From: Lineus longissimus
Lineage: Eukaryota > Nemertea > Pilidiophora > Heteronemertea > Lineidae
Reading direction: 5' to 3'
Length of the DNA: 64,000 bases
NCBI RefSeq assembly: GCF_910592395.1
Contig: NC_088320.1
Coordinates: 6,760,001-6,824,000 of the forward strand
The translations under genes were made by a program, and so were the position numbers. Numbering within the stretch: the first letter of the stretch is position 1; each line of letters starts with the position of its first letter. This document shows positions 20,280 to 54,595 of this stretch, one piece after another. The notes beneath the pieces are model-generated. The model made no database searches and was not told the DNA's origin. It saw only the letters and a program-made list of their open reading frames with translations.

Positions 20280-22229
20280 TTAATATGGGACTATTGGTTG
20301 CTTTGCATTACGCCTTTTGTCGTCGTCGTCGTCGTCATCGCCATCATCATCATCATCACCATCACCATCATCATCATCGTCGTCACTCGCATCTTCCCTC
20401 TTGGTGTTGGCTCGTTTTTTGTCGTCATCATCATCGTCATCACTTTCACTTGAGCTCTCGTCACTGTCACTTTCACTTGAGCTCTCGCTACTGTCACTTT
20501 CACTTGAACTTTCGTCACTGCTCGCATCACTATCACCAACGCTATTGCTGATGGCTCTTTTTTTGTCGTCATCATCACTGTCACTTTCACTTGAACTCAC
20601 GTCACTGTCACTTTCACTTGAGCTCTCGCTACTCTCACTTGAGCTTGAGCTTTCGTCACTGCTCGTATCACTATCGTCAACACTATTGCTGGTGGCTCTT
20701 TTTTTGTCGTCATCATCACTGTCACTTTCACTTGAGCTTTCGTCGCTGCTGGTATCACTATCGTCAACGCTATTGCTGGTGGCTCGTTTTTTATTGTCAT
20801 CATCATCACTGTCACTTTCACTTGAACTCACGTCACTGTCACTTTCACTTGAGCTCTCGCTACTCTCACTTTCACTTGAGCTCTCGCTACTGTCACTTTC
20901 ACTTGAGCTGTCGTCACTGTCACTTTCACTTGAGCTTTCGTCACTGCTCGTATCACTATCGTCAACACTATTGCTGGTGGCTCTTTTTTTGTCGTCATCA
21001 TCACTGTCACTTTCACTTGAGCTTTCGTCGCTGCTGGTATCACTATCGTCAACGCTATTGCTGGTGGCTCGTTTTTTATTGTCATCATCATCACTGTCAC
21101 TTTCACTTGAACTCACGTCACTGTCACTTTCACTTGAGCTCTCGCTACTCTCACTTTCACTTGAGCTCTCGCTACTGTCACTTTCACTTGAGCTGTCGTC
21201 ACTGTCACTTTCACTTGAGCTTTCGTCACTGCTCGTATCACTATCGTCAACACTATTGCTGGTGGCTCTTTTTTTGTCGTCATCATCACTTTCACTTTCA
21301 CTTGAACTTACGTCACGGTCACTTTCATCATGTTTGCTGTCCATTTGCCTCTTGGTGTTGGCTCGTTTTTTGTCGTCATCATCACTGTCACTTTCACTTG
21401 AACTCACGTCACTGTCACTTTCACTTGAGCTCTCGCTACTCTCACTTGAGCTTGAGCTCTCGCTACTCTCACTTGAGCTTGAGCTTTCGTCACTGCTCGT
21501 ATCACTATCGTCAATGCTATTGCTGGTGGCTCTTTTTTTGTCGTCATCATCACTGTCACTTTCACTTGAACTCACGTCACTGTCACTTTCACTTGAGCTC
21601 TCGCTACTCTCACTTGAGCTTGAGCTTTCGTCACTGCTCGTATCACTATCGTCAATGCTATTGCTGGTGGCTCTTTTTTTGTCGTCATCATCACTGTCAC
21701 TTTCACTTGAACTCACGTCACTGTCACTTTCACTTGAGCTCTCGCTACTCTCACTTGAGCTTGAGCTTTCGTCACTGCTCGTATCACTATCGTCAACACT
21801 ATTGCTGGTGGCTCTTTTTTTGTCGTCATCATCACTGTCACTTTCACTTGAGCTCTCGCTACTGTCACTTTCACTTGAGCTCTCGCTACTGTCACTTTCA
21901 CTTGAGCTCTTGCTACTGTCACTGTCACTTTCACTTGAGCTCTCGCTACTGTCACTTTCACTTGAGCTCTTGTCACTGTCACTTTCACTTGAGCTCTCGC
22001 TACTGTCACTTTTACTTGAGCTCTTGTCACTGTCACTTTCACTTGAGCTCTCATCGCTGCTCTCATTACTTGTGGTCTTTTCACTAATCTGGTCACTATC
22101 AACCTCACCAAAGCCCTCGTCACTAGTGGACTGATTACTGTCCTCGTTACTCTGGACCTCCTGTGATTTGCCATTGGAGTCGGCCGCCGCATTTTGTCCC
22201 ATCATGACCAATTCTTCTGGTGTTGGTAT
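20280..22229 (-). other. Terminal exon 7: Ser/Asp/Glu repeat tail with KKR sites
   Basis: Acceptor cattttttttcag, phase 0, beginning IPTPEELVMMGQNAAADSN. The body is built from SSSESDSD/SSESS blocks and a recurring module, KKRATSNSVDDSDTSSDES, found eight times with V or I plus one variant (AISNSVGDSDASSDES). Two other KKRA sites are followed by NTKR. A 285-bp unit (95 residues) is present as near-identical direct copies starting at 20824 and 21109. S-x-E sites for secretory-pathway kinases are extremely dense. The exon ends in a poly-Asp stretch, KRRNAKQ and PIVPY. Confidence 0.88.
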
Positions 22230-25200
22230 CTGAAAAAAAATGTGCGTCTAATATAAATATAGCGTCTACAATATTCCATCCTCCCAAACTCAACAACCCC
22301 GAACCCGAACTAAGCATAGTAGAATCACCCCTTCCCTATTTTACTAATCTAAAAAAATAGAAAAAAAGACAGAAGCTGCACACTCTTGGTTGAGATAATG
22401 TGAATATTAGCGGTTGTGTGAGCATAGTATACAAAATGAATCATTCCGCTGTTGGACAACAACTAAGAGCACTTTGACTGTCGAGATTTTGCTTCGCTTC
22501 TAACTGACAGTCTTGCGTCATGTGAAGATGACGCCTGTACTACATACCACAATGCCATCTCCCTTTTCCACTTTAGTCAATTCACACGAAGTTTCAAAGG
22601 CTTCCTTGTCAATAGTCTTCGACGCATTGAGTTTGAGCTGTATTGCGATTCCAGGGCTGACATCTCCTGGAACGATGAAGTATGAAATCGAAATTTTTGC
22701 ACTTGGTTTTTTGAGTTGAAGTCACCCATTTTAAAGGCTGAATTTCCTTCCCTGTCGTCATTGAGCCAATCCTTCATTGTTGAACGACAATGAAATGTAT
22801 GTAATGTACAGTGATCACTTGATCAAGGCCTCCCAAACTCGACAACCAAGAATTGCTCAATAATCTTGTCACGAACGTACATGCACATTTATATACAAAC
22901 TAATTAGACCTTTGTTCTATAAGTATCTTATTTGGATGTTCTGATAGACTTGGCTTTTCAGAGAATTAAGGGTATTTCGTATGCTATTAACAGTGGGCTT
23001 GAGGTGTGGTACTATTCGTTCTTCATTATCCACTAAAACGGCAGATAGAAAACCATTGTTCATCCTTCCAATCAAGCTCAAGGCCTTTTTCAGTTAGGAT
23101 AGTTTTGAGCAAAATACCTGCTCATTTTGATGATAATGACACACTATGCAACGGCATTATAGCTGTTCGTTTAAAATGCTCAACCTGATCAGAGTCTTTC
23201 CATGAAGCCCAAGAGAGCTGCGGGATCACAGGAAACTTGCCGTGACCAGACTCATTTTATTGAAAGATTCTGACCTCACTTACCTTGGCCGTTCTTCAAC
23301 AATACGTCGGCCCCAATGGGAAGACATTCGTCCGTCTGCATAGTTATTGGTCCATCGAAGAGTTCGGGAACGTTCACCACGTAGTTTGGTCCACCACTTA
23401 TAGTCGTAAAATATTTACTATTGTCTGAAAAAAGAGATCTTCATTTAATCTAATGACGAGGCATTTTTGGTAAATTCACACCAACTCGCCATAGAAATTA
23501 AAACACACTATAACCTTACTCGTTCTAAAGAAAAACAATTCGTGGAAGCAAGACACTTTGAAAATGTTCGCGGGTTTTACGTCCATGAATGATATTGACA
23601 CTGAAATTAGCTATAGTTCTTTTTAAAAACATGTGCTTGGCGCATGGTAGCATTGGATCGAGAAGCAAACTACCGTTTGTGACGTGATCGGACCTGCCCT
23701 CTTTGCTATAAAAAACTCATCGTGTGGTCAATGTGGAAGTCGTCCGAAAACCTACCTAGTAAGCACTGCCATGCACTTCCTACAGTTCCGTTGACAGTAC
23801 TTTGGAAGCAGCTTACAGTATCCTTGCCATTAGCACCAGCAATTCTTACTTCGCTTATTTGGAAGCCTGGTTGCTGTAAACAAGAATATGGCTTTTGTTT
23901 ATCATGTTTATGGTGACAAAAAGAAGTTAAAAAGAGAAGGAATACCACACGTTCATGGTGAGATTTGGATGTGTTAGTACAGTGTATAATAATTCCAATA
24001 AATAGTTAACATTATTGGCGAACGCGTTAAACGATATAGTTAACCCTGATTGGCGAACACGTAACGGTACGATTACAAATGCCCGTCTCAAACCAATTAG
24101 TACATGCACCTGCTAGTTCGTGATTAACAAAAATTATCGGGCATGTCGGGCGGCGAGATTCTATTGGCTGCACAGTTGACCTGCAACGGTTAGCTTAAGT
24201 ATAGAACGCTCTCTGTGAAATACACATACCATGTCACAAACATACATACCCATTCAAGACCCATGGTCTGTGAATGGTGAGGGCATGTACACGTACTGTA
24301 GATTAGTGCATTACATAGCCTAGCTAATAATTATAGCATAATATGACTCTAACAACAAATTTGTGAATAAGAAATATGAACGGCCGCTGTGTATATGTTG
24401 TCATGGTTTGTTCCACTTTCATATTCAAGATCCTCCTATCATTAAAGAGATTCTAAGGGCAGGAGCTAAGAAGGCAAGATAAAGATACACAAGTCGCCAG
24501 TAGGGGTCTCTCCCATCCTCCCATCTCGTGGTACGTCTGTCAAAACTATTTACGCTTGTACGAGGGAGGAATATATTTAGTCGTGAATCAGACAAGACCC
24601 AGGCGCCGTCCTTTGCATATTAGTCACCCGAAGATGTCCATTTACCCCCCCCCCCGCTCCTGCCTAAAGTCCCCTTTAAAGGGTGTAATAACGTTTCGCT
24701 CTCGAAATAACAGTACCTTGCTCAGGTCTACCACAATTCTCTTAGCGAATAGAGGAATGAAGACAGCTAGGCGCTGATTCACGAAGTCGATCGCTCCGCT
24801 GAAAAAATTAATGTGATATATTTTACGAGCTTCCAGGAGCCAAAACGGTGTGCATACATTTTGTAAACGATTTTTCCTGAGGAAAAGCATTCATAATGCA
24901 AACTAGATAATATGTCACGTTTTTGCCTGTGAAATTGAAGTGGTTCAGTTTGCTTAATCCCAAGTTCTCTTCACATTACCCACTCACTGATTTAGACATG
25001 AGCGGTTTTTCCTCTCAGACTTGCTTTAATATATTTTTGTCTCAGTGATGATGGGATTCAAAGACATTCGACACTGCTTGTTTTTTTTCTTTTCAATGGG
25101 GAATCGACGGGTAGAAAAATATGTTCTCTCAAAATATGAACTAATTCGACACATAATTAGTGGTCGCCCATCGTACGTGTACGTGAGTCGGGGCTTACAT

Positions 25201-26375
25201 CGGACAGCTTCATCATCTGTCCTCAAAAATACCTTTGATCAAGTACAACCAGCAAAGCTAAACATGTTATTTCGACCTAATTAGGGGGTTATTACCAACA
25301 GTTTCAGCCAGACTGATGTATCATTATGAGTCGCCATTCATGCAGCGACATTTTATCTTTTTGAATAGACCTATGTTTCAGGACAAATAATTGTTATGTC
25401 TTCTGAATAGGAAAATGTGTCGATTATGACTGAATGCTGATGTTCAGTCAATAATTATATCATTATATCATTTGTCATCATAAGAGTTTAATTATCTCTC
25501 TTTCAAAATGATCTCATCGTCATATCAAGGTAAATGCAGCAATTAGCTTTTTCAAAACATTTGGCATGTTCAACACGATTGATTTCAGTATATTCTCCGG
25601 GGTAGAATTCTGCACGTAGCTAAACGCAAGCAGTTGTTTTATAATGACAAAATTTAACCCGGCAGGATACATGTAGGAACACCGCACAGTGGCATTCTGC
25701 GTATTCATCAAAAAAAGAACAGACTAAGTTTAGTACATCGTTTTCAACATCCACTAAAAACGTCATTTTAGGTTGTGCTCTGTGCTGATTGAAAAAAGGA
25801 GTGCGCCCTGCCATATTCAACATTGACGAAATACCACCTTGACAAAGCATGCCCACTTTCTATTTATATCTGGTACAAATGATGTATTCAGAAAACACGT
25901 GCACATTCACTTTCCATTTACATGTATATCATGTACACATGATATATTCAATAACACGTGTTTGCTCACTTTCCTTTTATATCTACTACAAATGATGCAT
26001 TTAGGAAACACATGTATACCCACTTTTCTATTATGTTCGGTACAAATGACGTACAAGCATTCAGAAAACGCGTGTTTGCTCACTTTCCATATACATCTGG
26101 TACAAATAATGTATTCAAAAACACGTGTATACTCACTGCCATTTATTTCAGGTACAAATGATGTATTCAAAAACCCGAGGATGATCACTTTCCATTTATA
26201 TCAGGTACAAAAGATGTATTCGAAAACCCGTGTATGCTCACCTTCCAGTCACATCTTTCACAAATGATGTATTCATGCTTATGGAGAAATTGAAAGACAT
26301 CTGGTCTGGGAAGCAGCAAGGCTCTACCGTGGCCGAGAAGGCCAGGAGGCTTAGGAGACCTAGGATGTACTTCAT
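20280..26375 (-). CDS. Secreted ependymin-related-like protein with a long Ser/Asp/Glu repeat tail
   Basis: Six coding exons join in phase to about 847 residues: 26375-26242, 24798-24717, 23873-23756, 23424-23284, 22666-22548 and 22229-20280. Residues 1-17 form a signal peptide (MKYILGLLSLLAFSATVE). The next 180 residues follow the ependymin-related (LolA-like fold) pattern: EPCCFPDQ at 18-25, DFVNQRLAVF near 50, Cys94, Cys109, DECLPIG at 143-149, and TIDKEAFETSC ending at Cys186. Family members are secreted calcium-binding proteins. From about residue 245 the chain is almost only S, D and E, broken by 11 KKRA sites and a final KRR, each preceded by an Asp run. The PDQWEG tryptophan of typical members is missing. 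The ependymin assignment comes from motif order only. The gene structure itself is strongly supported by matching phases. Confidence 0.85.
20824..21300 (-). repeat. 285-bp direct repeat inside the Ser/Asp tail
   Basis: The word gaactcacgtcactgtcact starts a unit at 20824 and again at 21109, with almost no differences across the shared part. The period is 285 bp and keeps the reading frame. This is the most recent expansion within a hierarchy of 18-bp SSSESD-type units. Confidence 0.75.
22548..22666 (-). other. Exon 6 of the Ser/Asp-tail gene
   Basis: Acceptor catcgttccag, 119 nt, phase 1 to phase 0, donor gtatgt. It encodes DVSPGIAIQLKLNASKTIDK and then EAFETSCELTK. The I-D-x-x-x-F-x-x-x-C ending corresponds to the I-x-D-P-x-x-F-x-x-P-x-x-C end of ependymin domains. 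The frame is intact. Confidence 0.8.
22846..22945 (+). repeat. Dispersed AAGAATCTTGT repeat, copy 2 (intron)
   Basis: The order aataatcttgtcacgaacgt, acatg, atatacaaactaa, tatcttat matches the copy at 5040. It lies in intron 5 of the Ser/Asp-tail gene and is diverged. Confidence 0.4.
23284..23424 (-). other. Exon 5 of the Ser/Asp-tail gene
   Basis: Acceptor cttttttcag, 141 nt, phase 1 to phase 1, donor gtaagt. It encodes KYFTTISGGPNYVV and TDECLPIGADVLL. The C-x-P motif matches the position of the third conserved cysteine region of the family. Confidence 0.85.
23756..23873 (-). other. Exon 4 of the Ser/Asp-tail gene
   Basis: Acceptor attcttgtttacag, 118 nt, phase 0 to phase 1, donor gtaggt. 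It encodes QPGFQISEVRIAGANG and ends WQCLL, with cysteines 94 and 109 and a sequon (NGT). Confidence 0.8.
24003..24075 (+). repeat. Short tandem duplication in intron 3
   Basis: The segment tagttaacattattggcgaa recurs as tagttaaccctgattggcga about 37 bp later, each followed by an acgcg/acacg-ttaa type ending. Non-coding. Confidence 0.45.
24717..24798 (-). other. Exon 3 of the Ser/Asp-tail gene
   Basis: Acceptor ttaattttttcag, 82 nt, entering in phase 2 and leaving in phase 0 at donor gtactg. It encodes SGAIDFVNQRLAVFIPLF and ends VVDLSK. The D-x-x-N-Q-R-(V/L) element is characteristic of ependymin-related proteins. Confidence 0.8.
25840..26280 (-). repeat. Minisatellite of about 53 bp, 8 units, derived from an exon end plus its 5' splice site
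   Basis: The word acaaatgatgtattc (plus strand) recurs at 25874, 25934, 25987, 26041, 26101, 26153, 26206 and 26259, with spacings of 52-60 bp. Read on the minus strand, each unit is gaatacatcatttgtacc, then about 12 bases, then ggaaagtgagcatacac. The last unit (26259) is coding: it is the end of exon 2 and its donor. The other seven lie at the start of intron 2 and most keep a GTGAG-like word. Confidence 0.85.
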
Positions 26376-26379
26376 TGCG
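26242..26379 (-). other. Exon 2 of the Ser/Asp-tail gene: start codon and signal peptide
   Basis: Read on the minus strand, the acceptor tataatttcag precedes cgcaATG. The ATG (26375-26373) opens 44 codons, with a classic hydrophobic signal sequence and a Cys-Cys pair just after it. The exon leaves in phase 2 at donor gtgagc. Its last 38 bases and the donor are the founder-like unit of the minisatellite that follows. Confidence 0.85.
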
Positions 26380-26575
26380 CTGAAATTATATAAAGCTTCT
26401 GTCACTGGAGGCACGATATATCATGTAAGGCCCGGTCAGCCTCAAAGTTCCTCTTCAAACAGCCACGATTACACTGGCTGACCCAATGTAACCCTGAAAA
26501 TGTTTGCGGTCTCTTCAATGTGTGGTTAGGGGGGAGGGGCAATTGATGTACTCAGGTTTTACGGGCATATTTCCC

Positions 26576-27059
26576 TTAGCGAGTTTCCGCATCGCTTACG
26601 ATTACGATTACGATTACGATTTGTGTTTGACGTCATCGATTTTTGGTGCTACGTCATCCGCAGCGAAATCGTCGATGGTACTTTCGTCTCGTTCTTACGA
26701 GGATTCCGGCTGATCTTCGTAAGTCGAAAAACGATTACATGGATTAGCGAAAAACCTATTTTCCACGCTACATATCAAGTTCAAGGTGGAATATTCATTG
26801 AAGAATACTTTAGAACATATATGTCAAACATAGGAACTGCATTTAATGTGATCAACGGCGATTTTGATCATGTTTTAGCGCCGAGAAAAGTGCACTCAGA
26901 GCATGAGAGCAGAATATAGGGCCTATACTACAGTACACCAAGTCGTTGGTGTGAATGCGGAAACAAAATTTCTGGTTCATGCCGGTTTTGAGAGTATTAC
27001 GATTACGACTTTGAAATCGTAATCGTAATCGTAATCATAAGGATACGGAAACTCCCTAA
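26576..27059. mobile_element. 484-bp inverted-repeat element with GATTAC-repeat arms
   Basis: The left end is ttagcgagtttccgcatcgc followed by about four gattac units. The right end is the inverse: gtaatc units, then ataaggatacggaaactccc and taa. The arms are about 45 bp. The interior has no recognised transposase. It sits in intron 1 of the Ser/Asp-tail gene. The tip GGGAGTTTCCG resembles the tip of the 127-bp MITE family (GGGAGTTTTCG). Confidence 0.75.
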
Positions 27060-27336
27060 TATACTATGGTTCGAACGAGAATCAATTATCAATTTTCAAA
27101 TTTTACCAGGACTAATGCAAATTAAACTAAGATTATAGTCACGGGTTTCTCTGACCATTCAACTTAGGGAGTCATTAGGTATTGCAGTGTGACTGGTTCT
27201 TCAAGGGGCTACATTTACCTTAACACCAGGGGTAGCAGACTTTGCTTCGCTGTAAGATATTCACGACTGCAAGATGAGGCAGCTCCGAAGACTTTTGAAA
27301 ATCGGAGAAGGAACAAAAAATGAGAATTTCACTTAC

Positions 27337-27406
27337 CCAATGTCAGCTGGAATGGGTGTCTCCGAATGAAATGGTGGGCCAGTTTAGGTTACCAAGGCAT
27401 ATATAG
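27337..27406 (-). promoter_or_regulatory. Putative core promoter and 5' UTR exon 1 of the Ser/Asp-tail gene
   Basis: On the minus strand, a TATA box (TATATATG, 27406-27399) lies about 33 bp before an initiator-like CCATTTC (A at 27372). About 36 nt later comes a strong donor, gtaagt (27336-27331). That would give a short non-coding first exon spliced to the exon holding the ATG. Inferred from spacing and signals only. Confidence 0.45.
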
Positions 27407-39834: not shown

Positions 39835-40422
39835 CTAGAAAATGGAACATGATCCTCTAGAGAATGGGTGATACGAATAAAGACTAGCGAATGCTTTTAC
39901 CTCAGTTTTGTACAGAAAGCCCTCGGCTAGTGTAAATGTACATGGAGATTTTGATAACAGCATTTGCTGGTCTTTATTCATATCACCCAATGTCTGTAGT
40001 GAACTGAACTGACCAGGGCAACATGATCCTCTAGAGAATGGGTGATACGAATAAAGACTAGCGAATGCTTTTACTTCAGTTTTGTACAGAAAGCCCCCGG
40101 CTAGTGTAAATGTACATGGAGATTTTGATAACAGCATTTGCTGGTCTTTATTCATATCACCCAATGTCTGTAGTGAACTGAACTGACAAGGGCAACATGA
40201 TCCTCTAGAGAATGGGTGATACGAATAAAGTCTAGCGAATGTTTTTACTTCAGTTTTGTACAGAAAGCCCTCGGCTAGTGTAAATGTGCATGGAGATTTT
40301 GATAATAGCATTTGCTGGTCTTTATTCATATCACCCAATGTCTGTGGTGAACTGAACTGAGAAGGACAATTTTTACTAGATGGGAGGCATTCCGCGTTTA
40401 AATCACTCTGTGCTTCATACAA
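39835..40422 (-). CDS. ORF of 195 codons made of three 58-residue repeats, unknown
   Basis: The frame from ATG 40422 to the stop near 39837 contains three head-to-tail copies of a 58-residue unit. Each includes QFSSLQTLGDMNKDQQMLL, SKSPCTFTLAEGFLYKTEV and YSYHPFSRGSC. Unit boundaries at DNA level are 39847, 40021 and 40195 (174 bp each). The units differ at only a few positions, and some changes alter the protein (A/G, T/A, R/S). No signal peptide, acceptor or known domain was recognised. A tandem repeat whose period is a multiple of three stays open easily, so this may not be translated. Confidence 0.3.
   Translation of the reverse strand: MYEAQSDLNAECLPSSKNCPSQFSSPQTLGDMNKDQQMLLSKSPCTFTLAEGFLYKTEVKTFARLYSYHPFSRGSCCPCQFSSLQTLGDMNKDQQMLLSKSPCTFTLAGGFLYKTEVKAFASLYSYHPFSRGSCCPGQFSSLQTLGDMNKDQQMLLSKSPCTFTLAEGFLYKTEVKAFASLYSYHPFSRGSCSIF
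39847..40370. repeat. 174-bp tandem repeat, three copies
   Basis: Units start with acatgatcctctagagaatg at 39847, 40021 and 40195, and end with a gaactgaactgacnagggca segment. They are nearly identical, which implies a recent tandem expansion. Each unit carries AATAAAG words on both strands. Confidence 0.9.
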
Positions 40423-42039
40423 GGGTAATACTTCAATATACGTGTAGTTAAGTTATGAGTACACTGTTAAAAATACTTGTAAATCAACAGGCAATGAAGG
40501 TAAAATAGTTACCAATTTCTTCTGTATATATATTTGTTTATTTAAAAAGTGTCACCTTTAAAAGAAAAGCCAGCCTCATTAGGCTTATGAGACACATAAA
40601 AATAACAAAATTAAATAATTCAGGCGGTATATCGTGAATTTAACAGACAAAAAGGGTTAAAAATGGGAAGTGAGGTTTAAGGATAAATGTTTAACAAGAT
40701 ATTGGTTAGATAGACTAGCATTCCGTTCTGATTACGAGCATATGGTGCTTTCTGTGATTACATGTAGATTAGTTCTAATTCATTTACCGTTGAACATGTC
40801 CGATTGCTTCAGCCTGCATTTTTAACACCCCATATTCAATCTTCCCCGCAAAAAAGTGCCCTGCTGATAAAAAATGTATTTCCTAAAAATTAAAACGGAG
40901 TCCCTCTGTGACCATTTAAGATGATAAAGAAATCATAGATAAGACAAGCTAGATAAGATATTCCTTTTTTTCTTCTTAATATCTTCGCAATGTCTGTTTG
41001 TTTTTTGTCGTGCACTTCTTTATACCATTAGCATAAGCCAGACATGGTCGTTTATTCAGAATTTATGGATAGACTTGTCTCCTGGGTATCTCAAAGTGAA
41101 AAATAAATCAACAATTATAGACGGCTTAATTGTGTAGTTACTTTGACTGGTGACTATCTTCAGGGGGAGTTTTTGTACGCTGCGCCAGAAATAAAAGTTC
41201 GTGCGGTTAATGTTGATGAGAAAAACACACCAAAAAACGACTTAATTGGTGAGCAGTCGCATTAGAATGATGGATGGTATAGCAAGTAGTGTTTGGAGAC
41301 GGAAGCTATCTCCTGGGTGCAATGAACACACGTCGAACTTTGCGAACTACAGGTTATGGCGGTATTTGGCTGATGCTATTTATAGTCATGTAGTTGATTG
41401 GACTTCACCTGTATGTACACGAGTACACGGTTTATTTAGTATTCACACCTCGGCTGTGTGGATTATGTAGTCTTAACAGGCAATAATGGCGATATCTCAG
41501 GTAATTGCCTACAATGGCCAATAGCAGATTGATAACTAAAACACGAATGCAATGGTCCGAGTTGCCGATAGTTTTGAAATCTGCCGTCTTTCGGGATGAC
41601 ACTACTGTCGACCTTTATATCTTGGTAGTTCACGAGAGTTGCTACCTGTCAAAAAACAGATAGCAACAACGGTAGCGGCCAATTGGCAAGGGTTGCGCGT
41701 AATTTATTGAAAATTGGTGGTGACATTACCACGCTCGGACTGAAAAATTCGTAATTTGTCAATCTCAATGCGCCATTATTCAGAAACATACCTACCAAGC
41801 ACTGGTTGATTAAAATTGATAACGAAATTGTGGATAGGATGTTTTTTCCTTTAATTGGCTTTGTAAATTTCACTTTTTATTCGAATTTGTGTTAGTACAA
41901 ACCCAACCTTATCATTTACATAATTATCGGTACAACTAATATGAATGACAAATTTTGGTTAAAGCGACCAAATATATCAATATATCTGAGTTTGGCCAAA
42001 TATATTTGATTTCAGAAGCGACGTGTACATGTACATGTT

Positions 42040-54300: not shown

Positions 54301-54414
54301 CCAAATCATTTTGCAAAATAAAACAATTATGATGTACGTTTTCTTCTCTCTTTAGGAAAACATCGAGTTTGGATAGCAGTGTTTGATTTGTTGTCGCTCG
54401 GCATCTTCGAATAA

Positions 54415-54595
54415 CGGTAGGCTAGTTTCGGTTGCAGTCTGCCATTATACAAATGCTCGAATTAGATACTTTCAATTTAGCACTTGACTAGAGAGGTCTT
54501 AGAATCACGGTAGGTTAGTTTCGGTTGCAGTCTGCCATTAAATAAAAGCTCGAATGAGATACTTTCAATTCAGCACTTATTGACTGAAGAGGTCG
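54415..54595 (+). repeat. 93-bp tandem duplication
   Basis: cggtaggctagtttcggttg at 54415 recurs as cggtaggttagtttcggttg at 54508. The units share gcagtctgccatta, gctcgaat-agatactttcaa and cagcactt words. Non-coding. Confidence 0.8.

Follow-up and report, generated by a model that had tools for sequence, protein, structure and literature searches.

A phased minus-strand gene of Lineus longissimus that appears to join a likely ependymin-related domain to a long serine- and aspartate-rich tail

Ependymin-related proteins have been reported from shell matrices, fish brain fluid, the water-borne signals of starfish and lysosomes, and the accounts concerned give no single accepted role (PMC6280359, PMC6363788). 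Of the EPDR1 proteins with described structures, that of the frog has a Ca2+ site, and the human one is a binder of fatty acids (PMC6608618). By alignment column, McDougall et al. (2018) defined three cysteine profiles (PMC6280359). Among other phosphorylated or acidic proteins, sea urchin phosphodontin and Pif are both experimentally supported; the Ser repeats of the former are phosphorylated (PMC2830187), the acidic low-complexity part of the latter binds aragonite (PMC11291548), and dentin phosphophoryn is described as almost wholly Asp, Asn and phosphoserine. The locus described here lies in a window of 64,000 nucleotides from the nemertean Lineus longissimus (NC_088320.1, positions 6,760,001 to 6,824,000), and all positions below are those of the window. 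One phased minus-strand gene in this window appears to join the exons of an N-terminal domain, which is likely to be a divergent ependymin-related domain, to a strongly acidic tail.

The gene consists of six coding exons, running from 26375 to 20280, whose joined frame of 2544 nt comprises 847 codons and a TAA stop with no internal stops. The exons are entered in phases 0, 2, 0, 1, 1 and 0, all joins are in phase, and all five introns between them have GT...AG ends. Scored with a simple textbook matrix, the donors rank 1, 2, 5, 27 and 56 among the 515 GTs on the minus strand between 20000 and 27500. When 236 candidate acceptors are ordered by pyrimidine content, the six used here, including the one preceding coding exon 1, fall at ranks 5 to 48. 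An earlier note on this DNA had proposed six coding exons with matching phases; their coordinates, strand and phases are confirmed here as one frame, and the four motifs that it quoted (PCCFPDQ, DFVNQR, ECLPIG and IDKEAF..SC) are all present in the translation. Its upper limit for the locus, 27372, is the position at which a putative non-coding exon would begin. The parts of the gene are as follows.

27400..27406, minus strand: TATATA box, putative core promoter read from the sequence; the putative start, 27372, lies ~30 nt downstream
27337..27372, minus strand: putative non-coding first exon (5' untranslated region), with donor TGG/GTAAGT and a start inferred from the TATA box
26242..26375, minus strand: coding exon 1, encoding the leader peptide and the CC motif, with an acceptor immediately upstream (exon start 26379)
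24717..24798, minus strand: coding exon 2, D49 to NQR, from the phased translation (as for exons 3 to 6)
23756..23873, minus strand: coding exon 3, C94 and C109
23284..23424, minus strand: coding exon 4, C145-x-P147
22548..22666, minus strand: coding exon 5, F182...C186 and the domain end at residue 198
20280..22229, minus strand: coding exon 6, the entire acidic tail (residues 199-847) and the stop
20412..21821, minus strand: first to last of 11 KKR runs, residues 335-804, from the translation
20319..20396, minus strand: Asp-rich block near the C-terminus (20 of the 26 residues 810-835 are Asp), after which come KRR and nine last residues

The interval between the non-coding and the first coding exon holds an inverted-repeat element of ~480 bases (26576-27059), perhaps the remnant of a small DNA transposon. 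Its outer arms are 18 nt long and 89% complementary, and its inner arms, made of TTACGA repeats, are 28 nt long and 96% complementary. The intron after coding exon 1 opens with seven diverged extra copies of a 53-base unit covering the exon end and the donor; including the original, this array runs from 26273 to 25849. Three of the seven extra copies retain GTGAGC or GTGAGT and might therefore serve as decoy donors. D49 lies 29 residues after the first cysteine, against 28 for its counterpart in EPDR1; since these values are close, the array probably arose from the exon end, rather than the exon end from the array.

The leader MKYILGLLSLLAFSATVEPCC appears signal-peptide-like by eye. The highest 12-residue hydropathy of the whole protein (rank 1 of 835) falls within the first 20 residues, which bears out a hydrophobic leader where the earlier note had a signal peptide. 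Six cysteines occur in the first 198 residues, at positions 20, 21, 94, 109, 145 and 186. Cysteine profile 2 of ependymin-related proteins comprises columns 23, 24, 94, 107, 148 and 186 (PMC6280359). C20, C94 and C186 match the three cysteines common to all profiles (columns 23, 94 and 186), and C21, C109 and C145 match the additional cysteines of profile 2 (24, 107 and 148). The intervals are 1, 73, 15, 36 and 41 residues here, as against 1, 70, 13, 41 and 38. When six cysteines were placed at random in the mature domain, a fit within 5 residues was reached in 11 of 2,000,000 trials, and the looser fits within 8 and within 12 residues in 63 and 338; the ependymin-type cysteine order seen by the earlier note is upheld in its profile 2 form. 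The cysteine pair specific to clade 2 is placed at EPDR1 positions 43 and 126, with a predicted disulfide (Wei et al. 2019, PMC6363788). In EPDR1 position 43 adjoins C42 and 126 lies 13 after C113; here C21 adjoins C20 and C109 lies 15 after C94. The C-x-P formed by C145-L-P147 is the counterpart of Pro 150, a conserved (not absolute) proline two positions after the column-148 cysteine in ependymin-related proteins (PMC6280359). Three of six conserved EPDR1 sites have counterparts, namely D70 (D49), P174 and F204 (F182). The domain length of ~200 is in register with ependymin-related proteins, and four N-x-S/T sites are present. Judged by these sequence features, the N-terminal domain is likely, although not proven, to be a divergent ependymin-related domain of clade 2 with cysteine profile 2. 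This assignment rests on the cysteine profile from the literature together with a small number of pocket residues, and not on overall similarity.

The tail comprises 649 residues, with 264 Ser (41%), 154 Asp (24%) and 74 Glu (11%). Its computed isoelectric point is 4.05, the lowest value that the method returns, and its computed charge at pH 7.4 is about -179 before any phosphate. The giant Ser/Asp/Glu tail of the earlier note is real, but its length, given there as 640 residues, is 649 when measured from the start of the last exon. The comparison with dentin phosphoproteins made in the same place holds for the Ser/Asp composition; it overlooked a regular KKR punctuation and the Asp-rich end, and the tail may be more than a dentin-like run. 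Each of the 11 KKR runs follows DDDD or DDDDN and precedes Ala (11/11). Together with two KR and one KRR they make up the 14 multibasic runs of the tail, which carry 40 of its 49 basic residues. Given this regular punctuation, the tail may be a multiply cut precursor. Cutting after each KKR would leave an initial stretch of 139 residues, less regular than the rest, and then ten blocks of 29 to 66 residues; past the last KKR there is a 34-residue block closed by KRR, and then the nine last residues. Kinase motifs are abundant, with 65 S-x-E (122 of the 264 Ser if primed chains are allowed) and 137 S/T-x-x-D/E. Some of the repeat array in the tail is of recent origin (a 285-base unit in 3.2 copies with 92% matches), so the sameness of the KKR runs is not by itself proof of selection. 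An open frame in this repeat is likewise little proof alone, because the opposite strand (616 and 511 codons) and a second minus frame (162 codons) are open too. The frame given here is supported by its phased join to the domain exons and by a modest excess of third-position changes, although the numbers are small (5 of 9 variable sites in nine aligned unit heads, and 2 of 3 in eight unit ends). The tail shows both the Ser/acidic repeats and strong acidity of mineral-matrix phosphoproteins and the multibasic sites between blocks of a convertase precursor of the Pif or granin kind.

A fused, secreted architecture is probable. The fuller proposal, in which a secreted divergent ependymin-related head and a 649-residue polyanionic tail form a precursor that is phosphorylated, cut by convertases and involved in the control of calcium or mineral, stands at about an even chance. 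The mineral or calcium function itself is suggested by analogy and is offered tentatively; we infer a matrix or calcium-buffering role. By analogy with EPDR1, the head would keep C20-C145 and C94-C186 as ependymin disulfides, with C21-C109 as the clade-2-specific pair. It would also keep the hydrophobic pocket, and may dimerise, attach to lipid or matrix, or both. In the secretory pathway, Fam20C-like and CK2-like kinases would phosphorylate many of the tail serines, giving a Ca2+-binding polyanion. Proprotein convertases may then cut some of the KKR sites and free phospho-acidic blocks of ~26 to 63 residues, with the head retaining the first acidic stretch. The tail products would bind calcium or raise its local concentration, and the likeliest place for this is a mineral or a secreted matrix. 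The general precedent of ependymin-related proteins in invertebrate shell matrix, named in the earlier note, is confirmed by abalone, where they are components of the shell (PMC2989941, PMC6003135). A bolder form of the proposal, and a doubtful one, is a lipid-pocket head of ependymin type that carries, or holds in place, a polyprotein whose phosphorylated polyanionic peptides are set free one block at a time at KKR, in what would be an architecture not previously described. The gene would in that case be an independently evolved Pif-like, dentin-like mineral or calcium precursor built on an ependymin fold.

Several results weigh against the proposal. The hidden Markov model check that the earlier note had suggested came out negative: the Pfam Ependymin family (PF00811) gave no match to the domain at E up to 10, although the positive control, frog EPDR1, gave 6.8e-42. 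A sequence search of the PDB with the domain found no relative, and a profile built from three EPDR1 sequences scores it at -1.0 bits. In alignments to EPDR1, sites R77, W151 and F191 have no counterpart. Global alignment to the three EPDR1 sequences was equalled by 6, 121 and 10 of 1000 shuffles, and local alignment by 111, 69 and 193 of 1000. By these counts the pairwise similarity is weak to nil and suggestive at most. A model predicted by AlphaFold from the single sequence, without an alignment, had a mean predicted local distance difference test score of 35, too poor to judge whether the domain has the LolA-like beta fold with a pocket and too poor for a meaningful fold search. The domain might then belong to some other small, secreted, disulfide-rich family, with a coincidental or convergent match in its cysteines, a reading compatible with the functional ones. 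The missing profile match, the three absent sites out of six and alignments close to those of shuffles favour it, but the random-placement control argues against coincidence in the cysteine layout, and the C-x-P, D49, F182 and the length are all in register. Divergent ependymin-related members are described as sharing very little beyond the cysteines and a few residues (PMC6280359), so the PF00811 miss does not exclude a divergent member. An unrelated domain seems unlikely. Cleavage at KKR may also be poor, because Asp occupies P4-P7 in nine runs and P5-P8 in two, and no R-x-K/R-R furin site occurs in the tail. Lastly, the covered text of four echinoderm skeletal proteome papers has no occurrence of 'ependymin' (PMC4336488, PMC2527298) or of 'ependymin-related' (PMC4336488, PMC2909932, PMC5460417). 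Densely phosphorylated repetitive proteins are reported to call for special techniques, however, and proteome studies may overlook them (PMC4094399).

Other explanations accept the acidic frame but differ on how it is made or used. The domain gene could end by read-through of exon 5, which would leave the acidic frame as a separate or minor product, perhaps a nuclear one, because KKR can serve as a nuclear signal. Such read-through adds nine residues before a stop and gives 207 in total, near the published median of 213 (PMC6280359). However, the tail exon is preceded by a good acceptor (TTTTTTTTCAG, rank 17 of 236), exon 5 has an in-frame donor (GTG/GTATGT, rank 27 of 515) and the phases match. 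Neither AATAAA nor ATTAAA occurs on the minus strand of intron 5, and read-through would bring in a seventh cysteine outside the profile; two genes or an alternative end are distinctly unlikely. If the protein is instead a granin-like cargo, its acidic, dibasic-rich and Ca-binding chain would condense and be cut in secretory granules, and its role would lie in packaging or the release of peptides instead of in mineral. Chromogranins are acidic and rich in dibasic sites, and the leader, the acidity and the 14 multibasic runs of the tail fit such a protein. The Ser content of 41% and the Asp-rich end, on the other hand, lie nearer to mineral-matrix phosphoproteins, and Gly stands before none of the multibasic runs, so that amidated peptides would not be expected; we consider granin-like cargo unlikely. 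The least probable of the alternatives is an uncut wet adhesive or coacervate protein, in which KKR would act as positive stickers that pair with phosphoserine blocks under Ca2+ or Mg2+, as in marine cements. Polyphosphoserine cements exist, and here too long anionic blocks alternate with short cationic runs. The Ala after every KKR nevertheless points more to a protease site than to a loose cationic patch, although recent repeat expansion could also explain it, and among the matches listed, by title and start of abstract, the literature on ependymin and adhesives contains no such protein.

The window as a whole has the look of animal DNA, and long open frames are few. At its left end, on the plus strand (764-2629), is an open frame for a major facilitator superfamily transporter (PF07690, E 2.2e-14), SLC45-like by eye only, and further exons of this gene may continue to ~3640. 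Three 174-base tandem copies with 96% matches (39846-40369) are open in one minus-strand frame (39838-40452), for which Pfam matches fall only below the curated cut-off. A 93-base tandem repeat (1.9 copies, 90% matches) occupies 54404-54578.

For the preferred reading, a divergent ependymin-related head with a processable phospho-acidic tail, the nearest comparison is with the ependymin-related proteins of clade 2. The gene product resembles them in its leader, the CC near the mature N-terminus, the order and spacing of the six cysteines, the C-x-P, the domain length and the N-glycosylation sites, but shows no detectable profile similarity and has 847 residues against their published median of 213 (PMC6280359). 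Ependymin-type domains are described with a cathepsin added at the C-terminus, and in six zebrafish genes the added part is a cathepsin propeptide inhibitor domain (PMC6363788). The same source finds 229 domains among 196 proteins, which means that some carry more than one, and gives extensions as absent from the vast majority of three groups and from most members of other groups; its section on the Basal-1 group, in which clade 2 is included, is silent on them. The cathepsin fusions share the plan of an N-terminal ependymin-type domain followed by a C-terminal addition, but theirs is a folded protease and ours a low-complexity polyanion (PMC6363788). Among the matches listed in the open-licence literature, a weak test of absence, none combines an ependymin-type domain with a Ser/Asp tail. 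Should the reading be correct, a member that brings along a phospho-acidic tail open to processing would link the ependymin fold in a direct way with the chemistry of calcium or mineral.

Among mineral-associated proteins, DSPP with its dentin phosphophoryn shares the tandem Ser/Asp composition, but is not known to have the regular KKR punctuation and Glu-rich SSSESDSD blocks found here. Phosphodontin of the sea urchin tooth is similar in its signal sequence, which is putative in the Lineus protein, its Ser/acidic repeats mostly ending in Lys and its Asp-rich C-terminal block. Its 35 repeats of 11-12 residues, however, directly follow the signal, with no folded head in the description, and their consensus has a single Lys and no KKR (PMC2830187). 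Pif (Pif97/Pif80) of pearl oyster nacre likewise has a folded N-terminal part and an acidic low-complexity C-terminal part in a single precursor, and in Pif the two are separated by dibasic cleavage. Its folded part has VWA and chitin-binding domains and is not of ependymin type, one cleavage site (RMKR) is described, and its low-complexity part is rich in Asp, Lys and Arg (PMC11291548). If the proposal is correct, the Lineus gene would join DSPP and Pif as a further, independent example of a single precursor with both organising and mineral-binding parts.

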